From: a gamma proteobacterium symbiont of Ctena orbiculata
GTDB lineage: Bacteria; Pseudomonadota; Gammaproteobacteria; Chromatiales; Chromatiaceae
Length of the DNA: 64,000 bases
Assembly (NCBI GenBank): GCA_003058495.1
Contig: QBVC01000007.1
Coordinates: 1-64,000, forward strand
Reading direction: 5' to 3'
Part shown: one piece after another, positions 11,685 to 57,518 of the stretch
Layout: every line of letters begins with the position of its first letter
Numbering within the stretch: position 1 is the stretch's first letter
Notes under the pieces: generated by a model
The model's database searches: none
Seen by the model: the letters and a program-made list of their open reading frames with translations, nothing else
What the model was told of the DNA's origin: nothing
Position numbers and translations under genes: made by a program

Positions 11685-12848
11685 TTGCCATTTCAAACCG
11701 ATAAAACATTGAGTGAATTTGGGACAAAACGGCTGATCGGCGAATTCTCAGGCGCTTTCGCAGATCTCGGCACCTTTCTGCCCATCGTCATTGCCGTGCT
11801 CGCACTGCATCTGATCGACCCCGCCGGCCTGTTTGTCGGCTTCGGCCTGTTCGCCCTTGCCGTGGCGCTGATCTATCGCCGCCCCATCCCCGTGCAGCCG
11901 ATGAAGGCGGTAGCCGCCATCGTCATCGCGGACCATCTCACTGCCGGCACGATCGCCGCCACCGGCCTGATTCTGGGCGCTACGGTTCTCCTGCTGACGG
12001 TCACCGGGCTTGTCACCTTCATCGGCCGCAAGATACCCCAAACCGTACTTTCAGGCATTCAGCTGGGCGTCGGCCTGATCCTCGCCTGGGCGGGCGCCAA
12101 GCTGATCATCGAGGATCCCGTCACCGGTCTGGCGGCGATGCTGTTCCTGCTCCTGCTGCTGCCCACCCGTCTCAAACCCTTTGCCGCGATCCTGGTCATC
12201 TTGGCTGCATCCATCTGGAGCATCGCCAGCCTCCCCGATCCATTGCCGGAGATCACCATCGGACTACACCTGCCGCACTGGATCGGTATCGACTGGTCCG
12301 ATGCCTGGATAGCCACCGAATCGATTCTGCTGCCCCAGCTCGCATTGACCCTCACCAACGCGATGATCGTCACCGCCGTCATTGCGAGCCGCCTGTTTAC
12401 GAACCAGGAACAGGCGATCACACCATCCCGACTCGGCCTGAGCACCGGCATCCTCAACCTGCTGTTGGCGCCGTTGGGCGCCTTTCCCATGTGCCACGGT
12501 GCGGGGGGACTGGTGGTGCAGCACAGGTTTGGCGCACGCACGGGCCTCGCCCCCGCGATCTTCGGCACCGCCTGCCTGGCGATCGGGCTCTTGCTCGGGC
12601 CGAATGCATTGCAGCTGCTGTTGCTGATACCCCTGGCGGCCGTGGGCGCACTGCTGGTTTATGCGGGTATCGATCTGGCGAAGAGCAGAGAGCTGACCCG
12701 GGGTTCGCGGGAGGAGATGGCGGTTATCATCACCACCGGCCTTGTCTGCCTGTTGCTCAATGTGGCCCTGGGATTGCTGGTGGGGATAGTGGCCGAATAT
12801 CTGCGCAGAAGATTGGGCAGGCAGCCAGCGGCACAGAAAGGGGCATGA
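11685..12848 (+). CDS. MOT1-type molybdate (or sulfate) transporter
   Basis: 387 residues, about 10 membrane helices. The signatures RRPIPVQPMKAVAAI (about 65-80) and GAFPMCHGAGGL (about 265-276) are the paired motifs of the MFS_MOT1/SulP-like molybdate transporter family. The N-terminus is uncertain: the frame can start at TTG 11685 or TTG 11709, and neither has a clear SD. Given the number of Mo/W-cofactor genes nearby, molybdate is the likely substrate. It appears monocistronic. Confidence 0.8.
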   Translation: MPFQTDKTLSEFGTKRLIGEFSGAFADLGTFLPIVIAVLALHLIDPAGLFVGFGLFALAVALIYRRPIPVQPMKAVAAIVIADHLTAGTIAATGLILGATVLLLTVTGLVTFIGRKIPQTVLSGIQLGVGLILAWAGAKLIIEDPVTGLAAMLFLLLLLPTRLKPFAAILVILAASIWSIASLPDPLPEITIGLHLPHWIGIDWSDAWIATESILLPQLALTLTNAMIVTAVIASRLFTNQEQAITPSRLGLSTGILNLLLAPLGAFPMCHGAGGLVVQHRFGARTGLAPAIFGTACLAIGLLLGPNALQLLLLIPLAAVGALLVYAGIDLAKSRELTRGSREEMAVIITTGLVCLLLNVALGLLVGIVAEYLRRRLGRQPAAQKGA

Positions 12849-14150: not shown

Positions 14151-15473
14151 CTAGTCCCGCTTCGATCGATTCTCGTTACACACCGCGCCGACCAGCCGGG
14201 CGATCAACCGGCAGGCATTGAGCCCCGCTGCCGGCGGGGTCGACAGGGTGCGATAGCGCGCCTCGCCGGCACCCAGCAACTGTTCGATCTTGTCGTTGGA
14301 GAGGTGGGGCTTACGCTCCTTGATCAGGGCGATCAGCCCGGATGCCTGGGCGGTGGAAAAGGAGCTGCCGGTAAAGAAGTCATACTCATCACCGGGCCTT
14401 GTGCTGAGAATATTTTCACCCGGGATCACCAATCGCCCTTCGGTTTCATTCCCGCCTTCACCCTGCTCCACCGCGATCACCCCCGCCATGGATGCAGGAA
14501 AGCGCAGCGACGGTTCCGGCCCCATGGCGGCGACAACCGTGATCTCGCGCTCGAGCGCCTTACCCACCAGGCGTTCGAGAAGGGGATCCGGGGGTCCGGC
14601 CAGGCTGAGGTTGATGATATCGACCTGTTTGGAGACCGCGAAATTGATCGCCTTTGCCAGGGTGAAGCTGCTGCAATAGGCCGCGAGTTCACCCGGACGC
14701 TGTGACCAGCAGGCCTTCAACGGCCAGTAGCGCGCACTGGGCGCGATCCCCGACATGCCCTTGCTGTTTCCGGTACGCGCGGCAATGACCCCGGTCACAG
14801 CCGTCCCATGCAGATCCTGTTCGAACTGAGCCTGGTCCTGGTCGACGAAATTCCTCGACTCATGAAACTGCCCTTTCAGGTCTTCATGGCCGGTATCGAT
14901 ACCGGTATCGATAATCGCCACATTGACACCCTTGCCCGTCGCCCAGCGATGGGTCTCTTCGACTGCCATGTCCTGGTAGCTGTGCTGCAGTTTCCCATAC
15001 GGATCGTCATAGCCGCCTGCAAGGGTCTTGAATCGCTGCATGACCTGCACGGTTTCTATATTCGCGTGTTTGCCGAGGGCCTCGACGACCTGCGCCCGAT
15101 CTCTCTCCCCGACAACCTCAAATACAAAACAGCGCACCCCGATCGATTTCAACGGCCAGTCCGCGACCCGCCTGATGCCGTAGCGCTGCTGCAGATCGGC
15201 CAGGAAATCCCTGTAGGCTGGCGGCAACAACACCCCGCCGCCCATGTCCATGGCATTGATCGGACGGCCGTCGGTCAAGCGCTCGTGCGCCCTGTCGGTC
15301 ATGGTGGCGATGAGCATCCGTTGTCCGGCGGGGACTGAAATCCGGCTGTCTTCCGGCCCCATCATATCCGCCATCATCGATGAATCACCCGGCATGCTCA
15401 ACGGCGCACCGGCACAGCCGGCAAGGATCAGCGTTATGAGAAAGAGTACCGTTATGCGTTCATGCATGGTCAT
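14151..15473 (-). CDS. Subtilisin-like (S8) serine protease lipoprotein
   Basis: 440 residues. Lipobox LILAGCAG at about residues 16-23 predicts lipidation. The catalytic triad is intact: Asp in VNVAIIDTGIDTGHEDL, His in DLHGTAVTGVIAARTG, Ser in GSSFSTAQASGLIAL. An N-terminal propeptide-like region precedes the domain. It is the distal gene of the sigma/anti-sigma operon (35 bp gap), which suggests a role in envelope-stress proteolysis or in processing the secreted repeat proteins encoded nearby. This role is inference. Confidence 0.9.
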   Translation of the reverse strand: MTMHERITVLFLITLILAGCAGAPLSMPGDSSMMADMMGPEDSRISVPAGQRMLIATMTDRAHERLTDGRPINAMDMGGGVLLPPAYRDFLADLQQRYGIRRVADWPLKSIGVRCFVFEVVGERDRAQVVEALGKHANIETVQVMQRFKTLAGGYDDPYGKLQHSYQDMAVEETHRWATGKGVNVAIIDTGIDTGHEDLKGQFHESRNFVDQDQAQFEQDLHGTAVTGVIAARTGNSKGMSGIAPSARYWPLKACWSQRPGELAAYCSSFTLAKAINFAVSKQVDIINLSLAGPPDPLLERLVGKALEREITVVAAMGPEPSLRFPASMAGVIAVEQGEGGNETEGRLVIPGENILSTRPGDEYDFFTGSSFSTAQASGLIALIKERKPHLSNDKIEQLLGAGEARYRTLSTPPAAGLNACRLIARLVGAVCNENRSKRD

Positions 15474-15507
15474 AATCCCTGAGTCAGCTAGCTGTTTGAT
15501 GAAGGTG

Positions 15508-16179
15508 TCATTCGGAGGTTCGCCGTACCGAACCCACCCCCGGATACTCCTCCAGGAACTGCATCACCGCGAGCACCCGGTCAGGCGCCGTGTCACTCGG
15601 CAATGCCATGACATAACCACCATCGGCACCGGTTTCGAGACGCGCCGCGGACGACAGGGGCCTGACGGCATGCAACAACTCAACCGCGTCCACTCCAGCT
15701 TCCGTCTCGAACCGGAGCCGTAAGACCGAGCCCGTCGGCCGTTCGCCGGATGACAGGGTTTTGTAATCGATACCCGGCGCTGCAACATCCCCGCCGCGCA
15801 TGAAGATCACGGCCACCAGGAGAATCGGCGCAACCGCCGCCCAGGCCCATCTGTTTTCAAACAGGGCGCTGAAGACACGTCTTGTTTCATGCAAAATACC
15901 CCTAACGGGATTCACCGGGCGAGCCGTTTGTCGCGGCGGCGCATCGATCTTCTCCATCAACCGGTCCAGCCTCCCGGCATCCGGCACGACCGCCGCCAGA
16001 TCATCCTGCACGACTGACTGCGCGGACCTCAACAGCTCCACCTCCTGGCGGCAGATATCACAGCCATCGATGTGCAGACGCATCGCTTCCATCTGCTCAG
16101 CGGAAAGTGTGCCGTTTACATACCAAGGCAGGTTGAGAAACTGTTGTTCGTGGTTGGATGCTGTCTGTTGAATGCTCAT
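15508..16179 (-). CDS. Anti-sigma factor with zinc-finger domain
   Basis: 223 residues. The N-terminal zf-HC2-type segment reads LPWYVNGTLSAEQMEAMRLH then IDGCDICRQEVELL, giving the HxxxCxxC zinc motif of ZAS anti-sigma factors. A single membrane helix follows at about residues 108-125 (WAWAAVAPILLVAVIF), then a periplasmic domain of about 95 residues. Overlaps the sigma gene by 4 bp (ATGA). It probably sequesters the sigma factor at the inner membrane until a periplasmic signal releases it. Confidence 0.9.
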   Translation of the reverse strand: MSIQQTASNHEQQFLNLPWYVNGTLSAEQMEAMRLHIDGCDICRQEVELLRSAQSVVQDDLAAVVPDAGRLDRLMEKIDAPPRQTARPVNPVRGILHETRRVFSALFENRWAWAAVAPILLVAVIFMRGGDVAAPGIDYKTLSSGERPTGSVLRLRFETEAGVDAVELLHAVRPLSSAARLETGADGGYVMALPSDTAPDRVLAVMQFLEEYPGVGSVRRTSE

Positions 16180-16808
16180 TGCTCTTCACCTCTGCCTGCT
16201 GCCGCCCGAGGATCCAGCTGCCCCAGGTATTCTCTAAGCTGTCGCCGCGCGTGGAACATGCGGGTTTTAACCGTGTTCACGGGACAATCCACAATCGACG
16301 CGATTTCATTACAGGAATAACCGAGCATGGTCAGTTCCATGACACTGCGGTGATTGGCGCTGAGCGACATCAGACCCGTCTGCAGCTGCACCCCGAGCTG
16401 CTGTTGCTGGAAGCGGCCTTCCGGGCCTGCATCCTCTTCATCCCGCAACCTGAGGGCGTGCTGTTCCAGTTCATCCATCTGCGGGCCGCGTGCCTCGCGA
16501 TAATAGCGCTTCAGGCCTTTTCTATAGGCGATACCGATAACCCAGGTCCTGACCTTGGAGCGACCGCGGAAATCGCCGGCCTTCTGCCAAACCGTCAGTA
16601 ACACATCATCCACCAGCTCTTCGCAGACCTCCCGCCGCTGCAACATGCGGAACAGATACTGGTAGATGGGTTGGTATAACTGCCTGTACAGAGCCTTGAA
16701 CGCAGCCTTGTCCTTCCGTGCAATGCGCTCCAGCAATGCCAGGTCCGGATCCCCGTGGCCCTCCACTGGATAATCCTCGGCTAGTTGAGTTTGTTGAATG
16801 GCTAACAT
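16176..16808 (-). CDS. ECF-type RNA polymerase sigma factor
   Basis: 210 residues. Region 2 is YRQLYQPIYQYLFRMLQRRE through VDDVLLTVWQKAGDFRGRSK (about 43-85), and region 4 is LMSLSANHRSVMELTMLGYS with the HTH CNEIASIVDCPVNTVKTRMF. The ATG at 16808 lies 36 bases downstream of the promoter-like motif TGAACC-N18-ACTCAAC on the same strand, so it is probably autoregulated. It heads the operon with the anti-sigma factor and the S8 protease. Confidence 0.93.
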   Translation of the reverse strand: MLAIQQTQLAEDYPVEGHGDPDLALLERIARKDKAAFKALYRQLYQPIYQYLFRMLQRREVCEELVDDVLLTVWQKAGDFRGRSKVRTWVIGIAYRKGLKRYYREARGPQMDELEQHALRLRDEEDAGPEGRFQQQQLGVQLQTGLMSLSANHRSVMELTMLGYSCNEIASIVDCPVNTVKTRMFHARRQLREYLGQLDPRAAAGRGEEQ

Positions 16809-16843
16809 AGCACCTATCTGTCCCTATCGCATCCTGTCTACCC

Positions 16844-16874
16844 GTTGAGTACCCCCGTTCCGTGAAAAGGTTCA
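16844..16874 (-). promoter_or_regulatory. Putative ECF promoter of the sigma/anti-sigma operon
   Basis: On the minus strand TGAACC (16874-16869), 18 bases, then ACTCAAC (16850-16844), ending 35 bases before the sigma start. The same hexamer, spacing and downstream element occur in the divergent promoter at 16908-16938, and a close variant at 19133-19163. The GAAC core is typical of the -35 element of RpoE-like ECF promoters. Confidence 0.6.
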
Positions 16875-16907
16875 TTTCCGAAGTGGAGTGACATGTTGAA
16901 GCGGGAT

Positions 16908-16938
16908 TGAACCAAATCCGGGGATGGGGGAACTCAAC
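16908..16938 (+). promoter_or_regulatory. Putative ECF promoter of the lipoprotein/caspase operon
   Basis: TGAACC (16908-16913), 18 bases, ACTCAAC (16932-16938), 40 bases before the ATG at 16979. The 33 bases around it share a run of five G just before the downstream element with the divergent copy. It lies inside the longer upstream reading frame, supporting the later start codon. Confidence 0.6.
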
Positions 16939-16978
16939 ACTATACTGGATGAAAACGACCAACCGAGGGGGCCTAGCG

Positions 16979-17758
16979 ATGATGCAAAAACAGGTAAAAA
17001 ATGTGCCTTTCTATGTTGTCTGTTCACTCTCTCTGATTCTGCTCGGCGGCTGTTCCCGTTCCGTGCCGCTGATCTCCCACGCCCATATCGGCCACGCACT
17101 CACCGCCTGGCGCGATACGCCGGGGCAGCAAGGCCTGTTCGTGATCGCCGAGGAGGAGACCGGAATCGCGCTTGACGAAACCGAGGCGGCCCGTGGAAGC
17201 GCCCCCTCATCCGAGGATCGCAAGCATCATTTGAGCAATGTTATCCATGCCCTGAATCCGGATAGGCGCGGTCGGGGCAATGGCAAGGGTTACGGGGCCA
17301 TCCGCGCCCTGGGCGGCACTGCGGATCATCTGGTGTTCGCTGCCGAATCCGACGATGCCAGCGACAACCTGATTCGAATGGCCGCGGCATTTTCCGAGGG
17401 CGCAGGCGAGGTTTCACGCCAGCTGAAGCTGGCCACAGAAGTCGCCCTGCTCGCGGAACAGGCCGATGGTGATGAACAGGATCGCCTGCTGGCCAGGCTT
17501 GAAGGGATATTGTCACACGCCGTCCAGGGGAAGGACCTGAACGCAAACGGTGTCATCGGTGATACTGTGGCGGAGTACGGACTCGAGCAGCTGCGCAATG
17601 ATATCTCCCAAGGACTGCATAACGAAACACCGGCCTATCAACCGTTGGGGAAGAAATACCTGTTCGGCCTGGTGCGCCTGCCCAGCGGCGGCTGGGCCTA
17701 CCGTTTCGATTCAACCGACAAAAAAGCCAGATCACGTTATGGCTATGGTCACTACTGA
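16979..17758 (+). CDS. Lipoprotein of unknown function
   Basis: 259 residues from ATG 16979, chosen because GAGGGG lies 7-12 bases upstream and the promoter-like motif precedes it; an in-frame ATG at 16982 is equivalent. Signal peptide with lipobox LILLGGCSRS. The mature part is mostly helical and charged, with a segment FSEGAGEVSRQLKLATEVAL in the middle and an aromatic C-terminus. No family recognised. Its 3' end abuts the caspase-like gene, so the two products are probably co-produced in the periplasm. Confidence 0.75.
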   Translation: MMQKQVKNVPFYVVCSLSLILLGGCSRSVPLISHAHIGHALTAWRDTPGQQGLFVIAEEETGIALDETEAARGSAPSSEDRKHHLSNVIHALNPDRRGRGNGKGYGAIRALGGTADHLVFAAESDDASDNLIRMAAAFSEGAGEVSRQLKLATEVALLAEQADGDEQDRLLARLEGILSHAVQGKDLNANGVIGDTVAEYGLEQLRNDISQGLHNETPAYQPLGKKYLFGLVRLPSGGWAYRFDSTDKKARSRYGYGHY

Positions 17759-17762
17759 TTAC

Positions 17763-19022
17763 ATGAACAAGGGACGAGGCCTGTTACTGGCATCCTTGAT
17801 CCTGTCTCTGGGTGTCGCCCGTGCCGAGACGGGGAAGATGCTGGATGATTGTGTCCAGATCGCGGGAGAGAGCGGGCTGAACGCCTGCCAGGAGTATGCC
17901 TATCTCCACCGTGGAGAGATAGCAACACTGTTGAAGTCCGCTGAAAGGCTGATTTTAAACGAGCGGTACCAACGGGCATTGCTGCTCTACAACACCGGCC
18001 TGCGTTACAACCCGGGAGACACGGGACTGACACGCGCCCGGCTACTGGCAACAAGCGACTGGGAAGAGAGCCGCTATCTGGGGTTGCGTGAGAACCAGCC
18101 GCAGCATGCCGGTAACATTGGCGTCAACGAGGAGCTCGACCGCATCAAATGCCAGACCCTTTCGGGTGAGGCCGCTCTCAGTGCCTGCCGCAGAATCATC
18201 CAGCCGGAACAACCTTCGAGTCGCAAGCTCGCGCTGAGATCCCCGGACTATCCGCAAGAGCCCACCTATTCCAGACTCGATCTGGGACATTTTCATGCCC
18301 TGGTGATCGGCAATAATCGCTATAGCGAATTCAATAAGCTGCAAACAGCGGTGAAGGATGCCAAGGCTGTCTCACGCATATTGCAAAACGAGTATGGCTT
18401 CAATGTCACCCGGCTCACCAATGCCACCCGCTACCAGATCTTCGATGCAATATCGAAGCTGCGCAACAGACTGACCGCCGAAGACAACCTGCTGATCTAC
18501 TATGCCGGACATGGCTATCTCGATGAACAGACAGAACGCGGCTACTGGCTACCGGTCGATGCGGAACAAGACAACTATGCGAACTGGCTTTCCACCAGCG
18601 ATATCACAGACATGCTCAACGGCATGGCCGCAACCCGGGTCATGGTGGTGGCCGACTCCTGTTACTCGGGCACGCTTTCGCGTTCCGTCAATGGCAAGCG
18701 CCTGCTCATTGACCGGGAGCAGGCCCTGATCATCAAGCGTCTCGCCGGCAAGCGCTCTCGTACCGCGCTGACCTCGGGGGGACTCGAACCGGTGCTCGAC
18801 TCCGGCTCTCATGGCCATTCCGTTTTCGCCAACGCCTTCCTCTCGGTGTTGCAAGAGAACACCGGCATCCTCGAGGGGGCGCGCCTCTTTTCACAGTTGC
18901 GCAGCAGAGTCATCCTGGCTGCGGACCAGACACCGGAGTATGCCGACATCCGTAAGGCCGGACATGAGGGCGGCGATTTCATTTTCATGAAACAGCCCAA
19001 CAGCGCCAGAAACACCCGTTAA
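17763..19022 (+). CDS. Secreted caspase-like (C14 metacaspase-type) protein
   Basis: 419 residues from ATG 17763, which gives a clean signal peptide (MNKGRGLLLASLILSLGVAR); an alternative ATG at 17739 would overlap the preceding gene. The first half is helical, TPR-like. The p20-like domain starts at FHALVIGNNRYSEFNKLQTA and has the His of LLIYYAGHGYLDE and the Cys of VMVVADSCYSGTLSR, so the His/Cys dyad is intact. Export to the periplasm and linkage to an ECF regulon and repeat-protein operon suggest a role in processing or quality control of secreted proteins; that is inference. Confidence 0.88.
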   Translation: MNKGRGLLLASLILSLGVARAETGKMLDDCVQIAGESGLNACQEYAYLHRGEIATLLKSAERLILNERYQRALLLYNTGLRYNPGDTGLTRARLLATSDWEESRYLGLRENQPQHAGNIGVNEELDRIKCQTLSGEAALSACRRIIQPEQPSSRKLALRSPDYPQEPTYSRLDLGHFHALVIGNNRYSEFNKLQTAVKDAKAVSRILQNEYGFNVTRLTNATRYQIFDAISKLRNRLTAEDNLLIYYAGHGYLDEQTERGYWLPVDAEQDNYANWLSTSDITDMLNGMAATRVMVVADSCYSGTLSRSVNGKRLLIDREQALIIKRLAGKRSRTALTSGGLEPVLDSGSHGHSVFANAFLSVLQENTGILEGARLFSQLRSRVILAADQTPEYADIRKAGHEGGDFIFMKQPNSARNTR

Positions 19023-19132
19023 TAATCCTGGTTAAACCCATTGCTCTGTGCTGAGTCTGCGACTTTGAGATAGTGCAATAAACACGAATAAAAAAATTTT
19101 CCTGGTTTTAAATCAAATTTTGTTCCTTGCAT

Positions 19133-19163
19133 TAAACCATTTCAGTCCCAGCAGGCACTCATC
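19133..19163 (+). promoter_or_regulatory. Putative ECF promoter of the repeat-protein operon
   Basis: TAAACC (19133-19138), 18 bases, ACTCATC (19157-19163), 54-57 bases before the start of the repeat-protein gene. It differs by one base in each box from the two copies at 16844-16874 and 16908-16938 and keeps the same 18-base spacing. Confidence 0.45.
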
Positions 19164-19220
19164 AAGTGAGACACAAAATTTTAGGTGTCCGATTTTTAAT
19201 TCCAAACCAGGAGATGAATG

Positions 19221-19835
19221 ATGAAAGCGAAGCTTACTCCACTCTATGCCGCGACTGCGTTGCTGATGCTGGGCGCCGGTTCGGCATTTGCCGAGTCCAC
19301 GATCGAAGGCGATGTCGAAATCAATGTCCAGACTGAGAACGTCATCAGTGCATCCATCGGTGACGGCAATACCAGCGAGGTGTCGATAGGCTCCATATCC
19401 GACAGCGAGGTCGGCGGAGACGTCACCATCGATGTCACCACGGGCAATGTCATCAGCGCCGCCATCGGCGACGACAATACAAGCACGGTAAACATCGGTT
19501 CAGTCAAGGGCAGCGAAGTGGAAGGTGACGTCCAGATCGAAGTGAATACCGAGAATGTGATCAGTGCCGCGATAGGTTCTGACAATACCAGTGAAGTCAA
19601 CATCGGCTCGATTGTCGACAGCGAGCTGGGCGGCGATGCCACCATCAGTGTCGAGACCGGGAACGTGATCAGCGCCGCCATCGGCGATGGCAATACCAGT
19701 GAGGTATCGGTGGGCAGTGTCAAGGAGTCCGAAGTCGGTGGTGACGTCAATATCAGTGTCACTGCAGGCAATATCATCAGCGCCGCCATCGGCAGCGACA
19801 ATACCAGCAAGGTCAGTGTCGGCAGTATTGAATGA
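19221..19835 (+). CDS. Secreted protein of five 36-residue beta-rich repeats
   Basis: 204 residues. ATG 19221 is preferred over 19218 because AGGAG then sits at 7 bases. Signal peptide of 24 residues (cleavage after SAFA). The remainder is five tandem copies of a 36-residue unit of the form GGDVxIxVxTxNVISAAIGD followed by xNTSxVxIGSVxxSEV, with no Cys, Trp or Tyr in the mature part and abundant Asn, Ser, Gly and Asp. The three predicted strands per unit suggest a beta-solenoid or amyloid-like fibre. It resembles curlin only in principle (N/S/G-rich repeats), not in motif. First gene of an operon with a GIN protein, a second repeat protein, a CsgG-like lipoprotein and OmpA. Confidence 0.85.
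   Translation: MKAKLTPLYAATALLMLGAGSAFAESTIEGDVEINVQTENVISASIGDGNTSEVSIGSISDSEVGGDVTIDVTTGNVISAAIGDDNTSTVNIGSVKGSEVEGDVQIEVNTENVISAAIGSDNTSEVNIGSIVDSELGGDATISVETGNVISAAIGDGNTSEVSVGSVKESEVGGDVNISVTAGNIISAAIGSDNTSKVSVGSIE
19305..19832 (+). repeat. Five tandem 108-bp coding repeats
   Basis: In-frame units of 36 codons, each with the core NVISAAIG (variants SASIG, IISAAIG). The last unit lacks its tail. Third-position differences between copies show that the repeats are not recent duplicates. Confidence 0.9.
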
Positions 19836-19891
19836 GGGTGAAGGGATTCCGCCCAAGTCGGGGCGGAATCCATAATCCGCAGGAGCTCGTC

Positions 19892-20716
19892 ATGTTCAAT
19901 CCCAACAAAAGTCTGAAATCGGGTCTGCTTTTCTACGGCGTAGTATTCGCGACCGGTCTGTTTTATACCACCCTGCTCATGGCGCTGGCCGGAAAACAGT
20001 ACCAGGCCGGCACCCTGCGGCTGGAGAGCATCTCCGCACGGATAACTATCGTTGTTGCCGATAGCCAGGGCATCAGTGTCGCAGCTTCCCCGGATCTGCC
20101 AAATGGCATGTTCGAGACCAGTCTGTTCGATGACACCCTGCTGATCAAACAGGAGGCGCAAGCCAGCCATGGCGATATCACGGTTATTTCCATGGGCAAC
20201 CGAGGCGGCAATCGAAGCGCTGTCACCATCAACGGTGAGACCACCCTGATCGAAGGTAGCGGTGTAGTGGTTGCCGGCGATACACACCACCCGCTGCCAA
20301 GCCTCACTATCACCCTGCCAGCAGGCACAAGCGTCGAGCTGATCGACTTCCGAGGCAAGGCCGATATCGGCAACATCCATGCTCCACTGTATATCACCGG
20401 TGGTGGCCAGGTCCGATGCGGTGAGGCCACGCGGACAAAGCTGGACGTTGGCAGGAACGCAAGAATCCACATTGCCAGGGTGAGTGAAGTGCTGGAGATC
20501 AAGGCAGCGGGTAACAGTCGCGTCTATCTGACCGAGGGCGGTGTTTCTCGCATGCAGGCCGATGTGGAAGGTAACAGCCGGGTCAGATTCAGCGGTCGGG
20601 CGAAAAAGGCGGCGCTTTCGGTTACCGACAACGGGCGGCTGTTTGTCGCCTCCGTCGACCGACGTGAATCCACATCCATCAGTCGCAACGGTCGCTTGAC
20701 CATCAACAACCGGTAA
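19892..20716 (+). CDS. Membrane-anchored GIN/DUF2807-type beta-helix protein
   Basis: 274 residues from ATG 19892 (AGGAG six bases upstream). One N-terminal hydrophobic segment (LLFYGVVFATGLFYTTLLMA) serves as signal or anchor. The rest is beta-strand rich. After VELIDFRGKADIGN come short repeated turns (RNARIHIARV, GNSRVYLTEG, GNSRVRFSGR, DNGRLFVASV, RNGRLTINNR), characteristic of GIN-domain putative adhesins. It sits between the two repeat-protein genes, so it may anchor, nucleate or interact with them. Confidence 0.72.
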   Translation: MFNPNKSLKSGLLFYGVVFATGLFYTTLLMALAGKQYQAGTLRLESISARITIVVADSQGISVAASPDLPNGMFETSLFDDTLLIKQEAQASHGDITVISMGNRGGNRSAVTINGETTLIEGSGVVVAGDTHHPLPSLTITLPAGTSVELIDFRGKADIGNIHAPLYITGGGQVRCGEATRTKLDVGRNARIHIARVSEVLEIKAAGNSRVYLTEGGVSRMQADVEGNSRVRFSGRAKKAALSVTDNGRLFVASVDRRESTSISRNGRLTINNR

Positions 20717-20730
20717 CAGGAGAGCGCATC

Positions 20731-21681
20731 ATGAAACTCCCCCATGCAAGATTAACCTCTGTCACTCTGCTCCTCATGGGCCTGGCAGGACCGCTCCAGG
20801 CCGACAGCAGCATCGATGGCGATGCCCAGATCACCGTCGAGACCGAGAACGTGATCAGCGCGGCCATCGGCAGCAGGACCCGCAGCGAGATCGCCCAGGG
20901 ATCGGTGATCGACAGCGACGTCGACGGTGATCTGCAGGTCGATGTCGGTACGGAAAATGTCATCAGTGCCGCGATCGGTTCCTTGTCCCGTAGCGAGGTC
21001 AACGTCGGTGCCTTGAAGAACGCGGATATCGGCGGTGATACCAGGATCAGCGTGGAAGCCGAAAACATCGTCAGTGCGGGTATCGGTGCCGGCACGTTGA
21101 GCCGGGTCAATGCCGGTTCGGTGGTGGACAGCGATGTGGGCAGCGAGGTCGATATCAAGGTCAAGGCGGAAAACGTCATCAGCGCCGCGATCGGTGCCGG
21201 TGCGGCGAGTGATGTCAATCTTGGCTCGCTCACCAACGCCGACGTCGGCGGCGAGGCGAACATCGAGGTCAATACCGAAAACGTGGTCAGTGCCGCGATC
21301 GGTGCCGGCGCCCTCAGCGAGACCGATATCGGCTCGGTCAAGAACAGCCGTATCGGCGGAGACGCCAACATCAGCGTCAGCACGGAAAACGTCATCAGCG
21401 CGGCCATCGGCGCCGGTGTCTATTCCGATGTCGCGGTCGGCTCGGTGAAGAACAGCAGTGTCGGTGGCGACGCCACTATCAACGTCAATACCGGCAACCT
21501 GGCCTCCGCGGCGATCGGCGTTGGCCAATACTCCAAGCTGCACGTCGGCAACGTGGTCAACACATCGGTGGGCGGCAGCGCCAACATCAACGTCAGCACC
21601 GGCGACCTGGCGGCCTACGCCATCGGCGCCGGACCCTTCAGCACGCGTAATGAAGTCAACATCGGCAACGTCGGCAATTGA
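20731..21681 (+). CDS. Secreted protein of eight 36-residue beta-rich repeats
   Basis: 316 residues; SD AGGAG before ATG 20731. Signal peptide of 24 residues, the same length as in the first repeat protein, and repeats begin at the same residue (G30). Eight units share GGDxxIxVxTENVISAAIGA and end in GSVKNSxV-type tails; the last two units diverge (NLASAAIG, DLAAYAIG), perhaps forming a cap. No Cys or Trp. A paralogue of the 19221 product with longer array, suggesting major and minor subunits of one extracellular structure. Confidence 0.85.
   Translation: MKLPHARLTSVTLLLMGLAGPLQADSSIDGDAQITVETENVISAAIGSRTRSEIAQGSVIDSDVDGDLQVDVGTENVISAAIGSLSRSEVNVGALKNADIGGDTRISVEAENIVSAGIGAGTLSRVNAGSVVDSDVGSEVDIKVKAENVISAAIGAGAASDVNLGSLTNADVGGEANIEVNTENVVSAAIGAGALSETDIGSVKNSRIGGDANISVSTENVISAAIGAGVYSDVAVGSVKNSSVGGDATINVNTGNLASAAIGVGQYSKLHVGNVVNTSVGGSANINVSTGDLAAYAIGAGPFSTRNEVNIGNVGN
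20815..21678 (+). repeat. Eight tandem 108-bp coding repeats
   Basis: Eight in-frame 36-codon units, core ENVISAAIG; period exactly 36 until the last unit, which has two extra residues (FSTRNEVNIG). Confidence 0.9.
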
Positions 21682-21690
21682 GGAGGCGTC

Positions 21691-22017
21691 ATGAATAACC
21701 TGCAAGCCATTCCGTTTCTCTCAGCCATGGTGTTGATGTTCGGCCTTGGCTGGGTAGAGGCGGCTGATATCAACCAGCCGACCCACCTGCCGAACCGGGC
21801 GATGAACAAGATCAACCAGGTGCGGCTCCAGGGCCTGGTGGCCGAGGACGAGATCGAAAAGGATGTTGCACAGGAGTTCGGCAATATCGGAATCGATCGT
21901 TTGCAACAGACGGGCTGCAACCTGAACCTGGGCAACACCATTGTCTCCAGCGGCAACCTGTCGGGGGATAGGGATGTCATCATCACCGGTGATGTCATCA
22001 ATTTCTGTGATCAGTGA
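21691..22017 (+). CDS. Small secreted protein of the repeat-protein operon
   Basis: 108 residues; strong SD (GAGGAGG) before ATG 21691. Signal peptide ending near WVEAAD. A short helical middle part (NKINQVRLQGLVAEDEIEKD) leads to a C-terminal strand-rich segment (NLNLGNTIVSSGNL, DVIITGDVINFC) with two Cys, one just before it and one near the end, that could form a disulfide. The C-terminus resembles a single degenerate repeat of its neighbours. Perhaps a cap, nucleator or chaperone; no family recognised. Confidence 0.75.
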   Translation: MNNLQAIPFLSAMVLMFGLGWVEAADINQPTHLPNRAMNKINQVRLQGLVAEDEIEKDVAQEFGNIGIDRLQQTGCNLNLGNTIVSSGNLSGDRDVIITGDVINFCDQ

Positions 22018-22034
22018 AATCAGGAGATCGGGTC

Positions 22035-23696
22035 ATGCTGAACGTTGAAAACAAGAATAAACCGATGGGATGCAGGTCAGCCATCGCGCTGATGCTTGCG
22101 GCAGGTCTGCTCTCATCCTGTGCCAGCCTGGATGAAAAACAGCGTGCCCGTGAGACCCATGCCACCAACGAGGTACGCATCGTCGCCACGCCCAATGCGG
22201 CGCCGCAAAGGGCGATCACCAATTTCAGCGAGTCGCTGCGCTGCATGGATGACCTCTTCCTGCGCTACCGCATTGCCGACATCAAGGTCGGCACCCAGGA
22301 CATCCCGGACCGCACGGAGGTCGTGCTGGCCGGTACCAAGGATATGCTGATCAGCGCCCTGTCGCAGATGTCCATCGAGAGCCGCGCGATCCGCTTTGTC
22401 GCCCTGGGCCAGGACCTGGAAGACATCACCCGCTTTCACAGCCTGCATAGACTGAAAAACTTCACCGCACCCGATTTTTTTATCCGCGGCGCCATCACCC
22501 AGGTCGACCGCGGCGTGATCGAGACCCAGGTGAGCGGGGGGCTGGCGGTAGCGAATGCGTTCAGCCTGAGCGCGAGCAAGGACAATATCGCCTCGATCAT
22601 CACCCTGGACATGAACATGGGGCTGGTCTCCAACCTGCAGATCATGCCCGGTATCACCTCGAGCAATTCGATCGCCGTCACCCGCAAGGGCAAGGGCCTG
22701 GATCTCAGCGGCACCATCAAGAAACTGGGTGCGGTCTTCCAGGTCGACTTCACCGAGAGCGAAGGGCTGCACCACGCGGTACGCACCCTGGTGGAACTGG
22801 GCGCCATCGAGCTGATGGGCCGGCTCACCCAGGTCCCCTACTGGGAGTGCCTCGACATCGAGACCACCAGCACCTTCGTGCAAAGCCAGATCGAGGACTG
22901 GTACAAGACCCTGAAACAGGATGAGTTGATCACCTTCGTCCAGGCCAAGCTGTTTGCCATGGGCCTCTATGGCGGTGCCGTCGACGGCGACAGGCATGCT
23001 GCCTTGAAAACCGCGATCGCACTCTACAAACGGGAGCAGGGGCAGATCGCCGACAGCAAGCTGGACTATGCACTCTACTACAGCCTGATCACCGATCCGA
23101 CCCCGGTGGAGGCGCAGCACCGGCGTCTGCTGAGCAGGACCATCGAAGTGGAAAACCGCTACGAAGAGGAGTATTTCATTACACCGCAGAGCAAAACCGT
23201 TTCTCAAAACACCGGGCTCGAAGCCGATCATGTCACACCGCTGGATCTGGTGTTGACCACCGACCATGGCACCAAACCGGTCTACCGCCAGGGTGAAGCG
23301 GTGAGCCTGCAGGCCGAGCTGTCTGTGAATGGCCATCTCTACTGTTTCTATCAGCCGAATCCCGGCGAGATCATCAAGATCTTTCCCAACCGCTACCGTC
23401 CGCAAAGTCGGGTGGATGCCCTCGAACGAATCAGCATACCGGGCAGCGATCCCTACACCATACGTTTGGACCAGCGCCAGGTGGTCGAGAAGATCCTCTG
23501 CATGGCCTCCTACAAGGATGTCGAGGAGAAGATGCCTTTTGAATTGAAGGAGAAGAACCTGCAGCCAATATCCCTGCAGCGGCTGAAAAGGATCTATCGG
23601 CGCAATATCGCATCGCTGGACGACCTCTACGGCATCTACAAGGCCTCCACCGATGTGGTGCCGCTGAAACGAAAGATCCAGTTTGAAATCCAGTAA
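22035..23696 (+). CDS. CsgG-like lipoprotein with peptidoglycan-binding-like and DUF4384-type regions
   Basis: 553 residues from ATG 22035 (AGGAG 8 bases upstream). Lipobox LLSSCASL. Region about 55-280 has a CsgG/HfaB-like layout: AITNFSESLRCMDDLFLRY, a DFFIRGAITQVD strand, a SSNSIAVTRKGKGLDLSG segment and a VDFTESEGLHHAVRTLVELG helix. About 315-350 looks like a PG_binding_1 helix set (KLFAMGLYGGAVDGDRHAAL). The C-terminal part (about 385-510) matches DUF4384 (VYRQGEAVSLQAELSVNGHL then YCFYQPNPGEIIKIFPNRY). Inference: an outer-membrane secretion pore or assembly factor for the repeat proteins, in the role CsgG has for curli. Confidence 0.72.
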   Translation: MLNVENKNKPMGCRSAIALMLAAGLLSSCASLDEKQRARETHATNEVRIVATPNAAPQRAITNFSESLRCMDDLFLRYRIADIKVGTQDIPDRTEVVLAGTKDMLISALSQMSIESRAIRFVALGQDLEDITRFHSLHRLKNFTAPDFFIRGAITQVDRGVIETQVSGGLAVANAFSLSASKDNIASIITLDMNMGLVSNLQIMPGITSSNSIAVTRKGKGLDLSGTIKKLGAVFQVDFTESEGLHHAVRTLVELGAIELMGRLTQVPYWECLDIETTSTFVQSQIEDWYKTLKQDELITFVQAKLFAMGLYGGAVDGDRHAALKTAIALYKREQGQIADSKLDYALYYSLITDPTPVEAQHRRLLSRTIEVENRYEEEYFITPQSKTVSQNTGLEADHVTPLDLVLTTDHGTKPVYRQGEAVSLQAELSVNGHLYCFYQPNPGEIIKIFPNRYRPQSRVDALERISIPGSDPYTIRLDQRQVVEKILCMASYKDVEEKMPFELKEKNLQPISLQRLKRIYRRNIASLDDLYGIYKASTDVVPLKRKIQFEIQ

Positions 23697-23709
23697 GGAG
23701 GAGTTCGTT

Positions 23710-24291
23710 ATGAAAATCGAATTGAAACAAACCGTCACGGGAACAACCGGCCACGAACGTCTGACCTGGCTGCGTCTGCTGAGCAGAAAAGCCCTGATCT
23801 ATCTGGCGCTGTGCGGCGGCATGGCACAGGCGGAGTCGCCAAACATCATCTACTATGAGGCGCCGCCAGCGGATGAGATCGCGGATATCCTGTTCAAGCC
23901 AAGGTACCGCGGTATCGAGTTCAACGACCAACCGGCACCGCAACAAGCAGCCAATGTCTTCGGCATGATGATCAATTTCGAATTCGATTCGATCAAGATA
24001 GTGCCGGACTCCCTACCCATGCTCGATGCCGTGGGCCGGATGATGCAGTTGGAACGGGTCGCCGAGCGGCGAATTGTCATCGAGGGCCATACCGACGCCA
24101 TCGGCGGCGAACCCTACAATCAGCATCTCTCCGAGCGCCGCGCCCGCACCATCAAGCGCTATCTGATCAGCCGCTTCAAGATCGCAGCGGATCGCCTGGT
24201 CATCGTCGGCAAGGGCGAGACAGAGCCCCATGACCGCCGCCGCCCGGCAAACCCGGTCAATCGTCGGGTGCAGTTCCGGCCGTTGGGCTAG
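23710..24291 (+). CDS. OmpA-family peptidoglycan-binding protein
   Basis: 193 residues; AAGGAGGAG SD before ATG 23710. N-terminal hydrophobic segment LIYLALCGGMAQA acts as signal. The OmpA_C domain is complete: INFEFDSIKIVPDS, RRIVIEGHTDAIGGEPYNQH, LSERRARTIKRYLI and RLVIVGKGETEP, ending NRRVQF. Last gene of the repeat-protein operon, so it probably ties the assembly to the cell wall. Confidence 0.9.
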   Translation: MKIELKQTVTGTTGHERLTWLRLLSRKALIYLALCGGMAQAESPNIIYYEAPPADEIADILFKPRYRGIEFNDQPAPQQAANVFGMMINFEFDSIKIVPDSLPMLDAVGRMMQLERVAERRIVIEGHTDAIGGEPYNQHLSERRARTIKRYLISRFKIAADRLVIVGKGETEPHDRRRPANPVNRRVQFRPLG

Positions 24292-56940: not shown

Positions 56941-57518
56941 TTGAGTTCCCCATCCCGTTGCTGGGATTCAGCGCCTTCAGCGGCACCGGCAAGACCACCC
57001 TGCTGACCCGGCTGCTGCCGATGCTTAAACAGCGGGGGCTGCGGATAGCCGTGGTGAAACATGCCAGCCACCTGTTCGAGATCGACCATCCGAGAAAGGA
57101 CAGCTACGAACTGCGCAAGGCGGGGGCCAGCCAGATGCTGGTGAGCACCCGTGGGCGCATGGCATTGATTTCGGAGTCGGACGCCAGGCTTCCGGAACCC
57201 GGGCTGGGGCAGATGCTCGGCTATCTCGACACCAGCGAGCTGGACCTGGTGCTGGTGGAGGGATTCAAGAATGAAGCGATCTACAAGATCGAACTCCATC
57301 GCCCCGCGCTGAACAAACCCCTGCTGTGTCATACTGACCCATTCATCATCGCGGTAGCCACCGATGAACTAGTCCCCGCTATTCCTCGCAGCCTGCCGAT
57401 ACTGAACCTCAACGATCCCGAGGCGATCACCGGGTTCATACTTCAATACATGCACCGATATGGAGAGAACGGATTTAATGAGCAGCCAAGCCATCGGCTC
57501 CAGCGTCAGTTGTGCTGA
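56937..57518 (+). CDS. mobB: Molybdopterin-guanine dinucleotide biosynthesis adaptor MobB
   Basis: 193 residues. Walker A FSGTGKTTLLTRLLP, KHASHLFEIDHPRKDSYELR and LVEGFKNEAIYKIELHR. Assists MobA. The 3' end overlaps moeA by 41 bp. Confidence 0.92.
   Translation: MIEFPIPLLGFSAFSGTGKTTLLTRLLPMLKQRGLRIAVVKHASHLFEIDHPRKDSYELRKAGASQMLVSTRGRMALISESDARLPEPGLGQMLGYLDTSELDLVLVEGFKNEAIYKIELHRPALNKPLLCHTDPFIIAVATDELVPAIPRSLPILNLNDPEAITGFILQYMHRYGENGFNEQPSHRLQRQLC

Follow-up and report, generated by a model that had tools for sequence, protein, structure and literature searches.

A three-unit gene cassette of a clam symbiont, apparently a remote relation of the curli and holdfast-anchor machineries

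Two described systems stand closest to the one reported here. In curli, the subunits are secreted by CsgG (PMC3521004) and the curlin repeats measure 23 +/- 5 residues (PMC10192328); in the holdfast anchor, HfaA and HfaD depend on HfaB for their targeting to the outer membrane (PMC6707917). The locus that we compare with them occupies positions 14151..24291 of the window, by which is meant the whole stretch of DNA analysed, 64,000 nucleotides of contig QBVC01000007.1 (assembly GCA_003058495.1) from a gammaproteobacterial symbiont of Ctena orbiculata. Its eleven genes are arranged as three units and form a cassette that looks remotely akin to the machines of curli and of the holdfast anchor, and whose probable function is to bring beta-rich repeat proteins out to the cell surface. 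The bacterium carrying it is a sulphur bacterium, and the genus in which the cassette recurs, Candidatus (Ca.) Thiodiazotropha, comprises clam symbionts.

All of the genes lie where an earlier note, made from the letters of the DNA, had placed them. Gene families were assigned by Pfam and NCBIfam scans of the window proteins, and export signals by eye and a crude rule. One of the units is a tight plus-strand operon with gaps of 9-53 bases:

19218..19835, plus strand: repeat protein A, 205 amino acids (aa), five repeats of 36 aa, signal-peptide-like N-terminus
19889..20716, plus strand: GIN/DUF2807-like protein (Pfam DUF2807, E 2.5e-4, 21.3 bits, under the gathering cut-off of 24.2)
20731..21681, plus strand: repeat protein B, 316 aa, eight repeats of 36 aa, predicted beta-solenoid
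21691..22017, plus strand: small protein, secreted-looking, whose C-terminal tail contains two Cys, immediately 5' of the exporter gene
22035..23696 (alternative start 22014), plus strand: CsgG/HfaB-like lipoprotein, the candidate exporter, with a peptidoglycan-binding-like segment and DUF4384
23710..24291, plus strand: OmpA-domain protein (Pfam OmpA, E 4.3e-19)

The OmpA-domain protein is a probable peptidoglycan anchor, and the small Cys protein matches neither Pfam nor NCBIfam at E 0.1. The GIN label of the earlier note falls short for the window protein itself but holds for its nearest two relatives, which exceed the Pfam cut-off for DUF2807.

The CsgG-like label had a similar fate, failing with Pfam on the window protein but standing up in profile-profile comparison. 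The window protein has a DUF4384 domain (E 2.6e-14), a weak PG_binding_1 match (E 0.15) and a lipobox Cys at residue 29; a sequence search for solved relatives reached CsgG at E 3 only, and the sole Pfam CsgG match of the genome is a different gene. In an alignment of 27 exporter relatives, which leaves out a fragment (L067), DUF4384 and PG_binding_1 are each found in 24 members and a lipobox pattern in 23, some of them doubtful. Pfam CsgG matches nine (best E 1.6e-6) and the HfaB model 22 (best E 5.3e-9), the latter falling far under the 300-bit cut-off of that model (14.3 bits for the window member). With hhalign, the family matches a set of 16 CsgG-family proteins with probability 96.3 and E 1.6e-9, and a set of six HfaB or HfaB-like proteins with probability 98.7 and E 1.8e-16, while five other cassette alignments used as controls stay below 1% probability. 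The CsgG set was made after dropping 8 of 22 Pfam-CsgG loci that had no open reading frame (ORF) fitting the selection rule; two of its rows (L095 and L098) have very long branches and are possibly wrong frames, and one gene is common to both sets (L092, which is the HfaB-like row L120). A tree of 49 sequences, whose root is arbitrary and in which several CsgG rows are long-branched, places all 27 exporter members in one clade (100/99) apart from HfaB and E. coli-type CsgG. Judged from these profiles and the tree, the window exporter is a remote relative of CsgG and HfaB with added peptidoglycan-binding and DUF4384 domains and a clade of its own, and its closest kin among known exporter families is the HfaB of the holdfast anchor, not the CsgG of curli. 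The curli parallel drawn in the earlier note thus survives as far as repeat proteins beside a CsgG-type protein are concerned but not in its choice of exporter: the locus encodes a CsgG-fold lipoprotein with secreted-looking, beta-rich repeat proteins (secretion signals judged by rule and by eye), and membership of the curli CsgG exporters is found at the superfamily level only.

The same comparisons bear on a periplasmic alternative, in which the CsgG-fold lipoprotein would be an LpoB-like scaffold, not a pore, running from outer membrane to peptidoglycan; the solenoid and GIN proteins would stay in the periplasm, and the extracytoplasmic function (ECF) sigma factor and two proteases encoded alongside would form an envelope-stress module. 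Peptidoglycan-binding and OmpA domains, a sigma/anti-sigma pair and secreted-looking proteases would all suit envelope maintenance, and the LpoB model has a weak match in one of the 27 exporter members (E 0.07). HfaB, however, is matched by 22 of the 27; the hhalign match covers E. coli CsgG residues 68-259, a span in which we take the membrane-hairpin region to lie; and secreted-looking repeat proteins recur next to the exporter gene. Scaffold and stress module, taken together, are an unlikely account.

The holdfast anchor HfaABD is like the cassette in encoding a CsgG-type protein with secreted partners, as well as in supplying the nearest profile match to the exporter. It differs in several ways. 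In six HfaB or HfaB-like loci the HfaB proteins are mostly 292-404 aa long, against about 550 in the cassette exporter family (lengths only being compared), and the cassette adds OmpA, GIN, caspase and ECF components. The proteins at the HfaD position in these six loci, assigned by that position and not by a model, have periods of 42-59 residues with z from 1.4 to 6.7. The window's own genome gives no HfaB match at E 1e-20. Ten small or repeat proteins from other loci had no NCBIfam Hfa match at E 1, the presence of HfaA and HfaD models in NCBIfam being unchecked. In L118 (7433-8383) the protein next to an HfaB-like gene, in the place of HfaD, carries SAAIGN words in repeats of about 48 residues; it was likened by eye to the SAAIG repeats of the window, and repeat profiles gave no link.

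The repeats of the cassette were described in the earlier note as exact. Their spacing is, at 36 residues in both proteins, but their sequence is not, the 11 complete units being 39-75% identical in pairs (mean 55%) and the last unit of each protein being incomplete or altered. The period-36 self-alignment score of repeat protein B is 2.72, compared with a best of 0.16 in 1000 shuffles. In repeat protein A the top-scoring period is 72 residues, twice the unit, as though two unit types alternate. The structure of repeat protein B is predicted confidently as a beta-solenoid (predicted local distance difference test 89.7, predicted template modelling score 0.86), the outcome of a check that the earlier note had proposed. 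A sequence search for solved relatives of this protein found nothing credible, and the Foldseek matches of the model are adhesins, SufB/SufD, lyases and tailspikes. Because these neighbours are so mixed, they indicate a solenoid and nothing further, and no conclusion about two-partner secretion or curli is drawn from them. Two-partner-secretion beta-helix adhesins such as EtpA differ from the cassette, whose Pfam matches include neither a two-partner transporter nor the two-partner-secretion domain.

Curli resemble the cassette in that secreted-looking tandem-repeat proteins with a predicted beta-solenoid are encoded beside a CsgG-type lipoprotein and, by inference, in a small partner resembling a nucleator. 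They differ in the repeat, which in the cassette is 36 residues long and lacks the QxGxxN of the curlin repeat X6QXGX2NX10, as the earlier note rightly held in calling the repeat motif different, and in the separate clade of the exporter. No window protein matches Pfam curlin at E 0.1. Among 23 exporter-bearing genomes CsgF was found in one, on a contig other than that of the exporter; CsgE was sought in the cassette only. With no curlin motif, and neither CsgE nor CsgF among its matches, the cassette is, by its gene content, not curli. The missing CsgE and CsgF are not decisive alone, since some curli loci lack them (PMC3521004).

Within Ca. Thiodiazotropha the exporter gene is present in 3 of 22 genomes, the repeat genes are present in the identical three, and the other 19 have neither. 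Repeat genes without the exporter gene, or the reverse, as a rule among related genomes would have spoken against a common system, and neither pattern was found in a search that ran both ways within the genus and from the exporter gene outwards beyond it. Besides the window, the three comprise L003 and L004, both from Ca. Thiodiazotropha (ex Monitilora ramsayi), whose titles name a bivalve host; they keep all eleven genes in order between flanks that, by inspection, are unlike those of the window. Farther out, the full exporter protein is matched in 11 of 210 genomes of the order at E 1e-10, eight of these matches lying within the CsgG-like part, and at E 1e-8 the domain profile matches 7 of 369 genomes at the level of the class and 20 of 398 at that of the phylum, the window's own genome being counted in each.

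Neighbourhoods were compared for 28 of 35 exporter loci, namely the window, L003, L004 and 25 distant ones; the other seven are in G387, G440, G576, G661, G672, G734 and G846. In an unsupervised test, periodic ORFs were taken as those with a signal-peptide-like start, z >6 and score >0.8 in a scan of periods 25-54, on both strands and with overlapping frames allowed. Periodic secreted-looking ORFs make up 26 of 155 within 4 kilobases (kb) of the exporter gene and 1 of 101 farther away, with periods of 35-38. Two of the 26 are antisense reading frames, as is the far one (L073, 7.8 kb away), and the remaining near ones span 13 of the 28 loci, 10 of them distant. The 25 distant loci therefore include 10 with a repeat protein by the strict test (within 4 kb), and nine more have one by weaker evidence. 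L057 reaches z 6.6 and was missed by the signal rule; L019 has one on the opposite strand at 4.4 kb (z 4.9); L062, L063, L064 and L066 have periods of 38-40 at z 2.7-4.4, equalled by 0, 1, 2 and 0 of 300 shuffles respectively, and no whole sense-strand ORF over z 5; L073 is counted here; and L074 and L075 encode giant repeat proteins of a different period. Of the remaining six, L020, L023, L067 and L071 gave no repeat protein on contigs that end within 2.6 kb on the 5' side, and the other two are weighed below. At L074 (4516-9154) and L075 (10590-15312) a second exporter type is seen, in the genomes that also hold L066 and L062, with giant secreted-looking repeat ORFs (1,214 and 1,285 aa) and a small protein directly 5' of the other CsgG-like gene.

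Other members of the operon recur as well. Judged by its conserved tail motif, a small protein is encoded ahead of the exporter in 17 of the 28 loci, an eighteenth match, in L074, being in the wrong frame; it lies within 195 bases of the exporter gene in 16 and at 567 in L057, and in 15 loci the tail has two Cys. Of the 25 distant loci, 18 have OmpA relatives no more than 6 kb away, a count without background for a common kind of gene; because L019-L022 contributed sequences to the OmpA profile itself, 13 of 20 (L056-L075) is the cleaner figure. DUF2807 genes are near the exporter in 7 of 13 cases, 0.06 being expected. At the 25 distant loci no relatives of the subtilase, sigma, anti-sigma or lipoprotein genes of the other two units were found (6 kb radius, E 1e-5). 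The gene-set search suggested in the earlier note bore it out in full for L003 and L004 but not, for the sigma unit and the lipoprotein, at a distance.

These other two units and the promoter motif that precedes all three are as follows, 195 bases separating the lipoprotein-caspase unit from the operon already described:

14151..15473, minus strand: S8-type subtilase, a lipoprotein, encoded third in the sigma unit (Pfam Peptidase_S8, E 1.6e-30)
15508..16179, minus strand: anti-sigma factor, zf-HC2 (E 5.3e-6) and a C-terminal domain
16176..16808, minus strand: ECF sigma factor (Sigma70_r2, E 3.7e-10; Sigma70_r4_2, E 6e-8)
16846..16874, minus strand: ECF-like promoter motif of the sigma unit, 38 bases to the start codon
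16908..16936, plus strand: ECF-like promoter motif of the lipoprotein-caspase unit, 43 bases to the start codon
16979..17758, plus strand: lipoprotein, lipobox-like LGGC by inspection, relatives in L003 and L004, no Pfam family matched
17736..19022, plus strand: caspase-fold (C14) protein, secreted-looking, start codon uncertain (Peptidase_C14, E 4.3e-22)
19133..19161, plus strand: ECF-like promoter motif of the repeat/exporter operon, 57 bases to the start codon

The shared promoters of the earlier note, claimed there without a motif, now have one. TRAACC-N16-GNACWCA, found by aligning the upstream regions of the three units in three genomes, occurs once ahead of each unit with zero mismatches, and likewise in L003 and L004. 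The whole draft genomes G000, G135 and G136 contain exactly three matches each, all inside the cassette; the backward control pattern gives 0, 2 and 3. Allowing one mismatch adds a single match in the window, at 56942, and spacers of 14, 15, 17 or 18 do not occur in the three cassette regions. The matches themselves are circular, because the motif was derived from the same nine sites; this circularity does not touch the lack of exact matches elsewhere or the motif's repeated presence ahead of three unrelated genes. Among the 25 distant loci the exact motif is absent and a one-mismatch match occurs in three. The cassette has the look of a single regulon that is apparently turned on as a whole by a regulator encoded within it, and its sigma factor presumably reads the motif. 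That the genes form one system, as the earlier note held, is supported by the confinement of the motif and the conserved gene set and order in three genomes. Sigma-70 promoters and terminators are not in excess of shuffles, and an Rfam scan at gathering scores found no match.

The anti-sigma factor has a single transmembrane-like hydrophobic stretch starting at residue 112, and its C-terminal domain (15508-15822) matches no Pfam family. By eye this domain seemed related to subtilase propeptides; no such Pfam match was found and the hhalign probability is 0.5%. The subtilase has the motifs IIDTG at 187, HGT at 222 and GSSFS at 369, which we take to be the catalytic Asp, His and Ser motifs, and its top NCBIfam model is the type VII secretion system mycosin (E 2.3e-40, under the model cut-off). 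That the subtilase gene adjoins the anti-sigma gene suggests protease control of the sigma factor.

Beyond what computation gives directly (gene content, shared motif, distant exporter homology, solenoid prediction and recurrence), a pore, export, polymerisation and roles for the proteases are inferred. The CsgG/HfaB-like lipoprotein would be the channel across the outer membrane, tied to peptidoglycan by its own binding domain and the OmpA protein. After the example of HfaB and CsgG, it most likely lets the repeat proteins cross this membrane in unfolded form; once outside, A and B would fold as open-ended beta-solenoids and assemble into a fibre or layer on the surface. Like CsgB or HfaA, the small Cys protein may serve them as a cap, nucleator or anchor. 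The membrane anti-sigma factor would hold the sigma factor, which would activate its own, the lipoprotein-caspase and the repeat/exporter units jointly. The subtilase and the caspase may process subunits into their mature form, trim the fibre or set the sigma factor free, the evidence discriminating none of these. An exporter of this curli/Hfa-like kind, with repeat-protein cargo building a solenoid layer or fibre, seems to us reasonably probable.

Several results weigh against it. The window exporter has no Pfam CsgG match of its own, and the HfaB and CsgG sets, which share one gene, match each other better (E 1.8e-33) than either matches the exporter family. The cassette's Pfam matches include no CsgE or CsgF, repeat proteins A and B contain no QxGxxN compared with five each in E. 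coli CsgA and CsgB, and the small and repeat proteins of the window match no NCBIfam Hfa partner at E 0.1. Enzymes and SufB/SufD are among the structural neighbours of repeat protein B. L065 and L068 have the exporter gene and room beside it, yet no repeat protein was found nearby. The window repeat-unit profile misses most distant repeat proteins: only L057 (10.6 bits) beat the best of 1500 shuffled sequences (8.2 bits), L060 falling just short (8.1) and the others lower, and the unit as a detectable homologue of the distant repeats was rejected. Common descent is therefore unproven and the claim is limited to a shared period and position. Lastly, the beta-solenoid is a frequent fold among proteins that form no polymer; open-ended ones are able to polymerise, but many solenoid proteins do not (PMC10192328), so that the fibre is a putative product. 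A variant differing in product only, and overlapping in likelihood with the exporter and fibre proposal, has the repeat proteins exported as soluble or coat-forming adhesins that the proteases shed; we hold this to be somewhat unlikely.

Among the matches listed by searches of the open-access literature, no description of the cassette was found, in line with the earlier note, nor any of the CsgG-PG_binding-DUF4384 family as an exporter (most subscription papers and all preprints lying outside this search). It may be, although we hold this to be somewhat less likely than not, that the cassette represents a third branch of CsgG-type surface-fibre systems across Pseudomonadota, beside curli and the holdfast anchor, which would be marked by distinct beta-solenoid subunits of about 36 residues, a pore fused to peptidoglycan-binding and DUF4384 domains, proteolytic control by a secreted caspase and a private, genus-specific ECF regulon of three promoters. 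If so, functional-fibre export by CsgG-type pores would extend past curli and holdfast; its subunits would escape curlin searches, none of 10 distant repeat proteins matching Pfam curlin at E 1; and 3 of 22 Ca. Thiodiazotropha genomes would encode a candidate surface structure. Since the regulon is small and self-contained, the claim lends itself to direct testing. A secreted bacterial caspase would also gain a setting with candidate substrates, since caspase genes lie beside the exporter far above expectation.

The caspase-fold protein has a signal-peptide-like N-terminus by inspection and the motifs YAGHG and DSC, presumably the catalytic His and Cys. Caspase and GIN genes were counted in 23 of 33 genomes with an exporter match, three of them genus members that are not independent. 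Eighteen of 102 caspase matches, in 13 genomes, lie within 7.1 kb of the exporter gene, where 0.45 matches and 0.43 genomes are expected at a radius of 8.5 kb, picked after the distances had been seen. This enrichment could also suit a defence or cell-death module with caspase and subtilase as effectors and the pore and repeat proteins delivering or sensing the trigger. In a PADLOC scan of 10 of the 11 cassette proteins (the sigma factor left out), the caspase (E 6.8e-15) and the subtilase (E 7.6e-19) match generic models, and IetS is a further, weak match of the subtilase (E 1.4e-7). Yet no complete PADLOC defence system was matched among the 10; no model fits the lipoprotein, the anti-sigma factor, either repeat protein or the GIN, small Cys and CsgG-like proteins; and the OmpA protein matches the MotB-like ZorB, reflecting a shared domain. 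The proteases carry export signals by inspection, and no subtilase or lipoprotein relatives were found in the 25 distant loci. A defence role is very improbable. The 3.6-Mb genome G001 (L021) has 41 caspase-domain matches, none on the contig of its exporter locus, and in L019 the protein 3' of the caspase gene (11712-12350) is pentapeptide-repeat-like by eye, with a period of 20.

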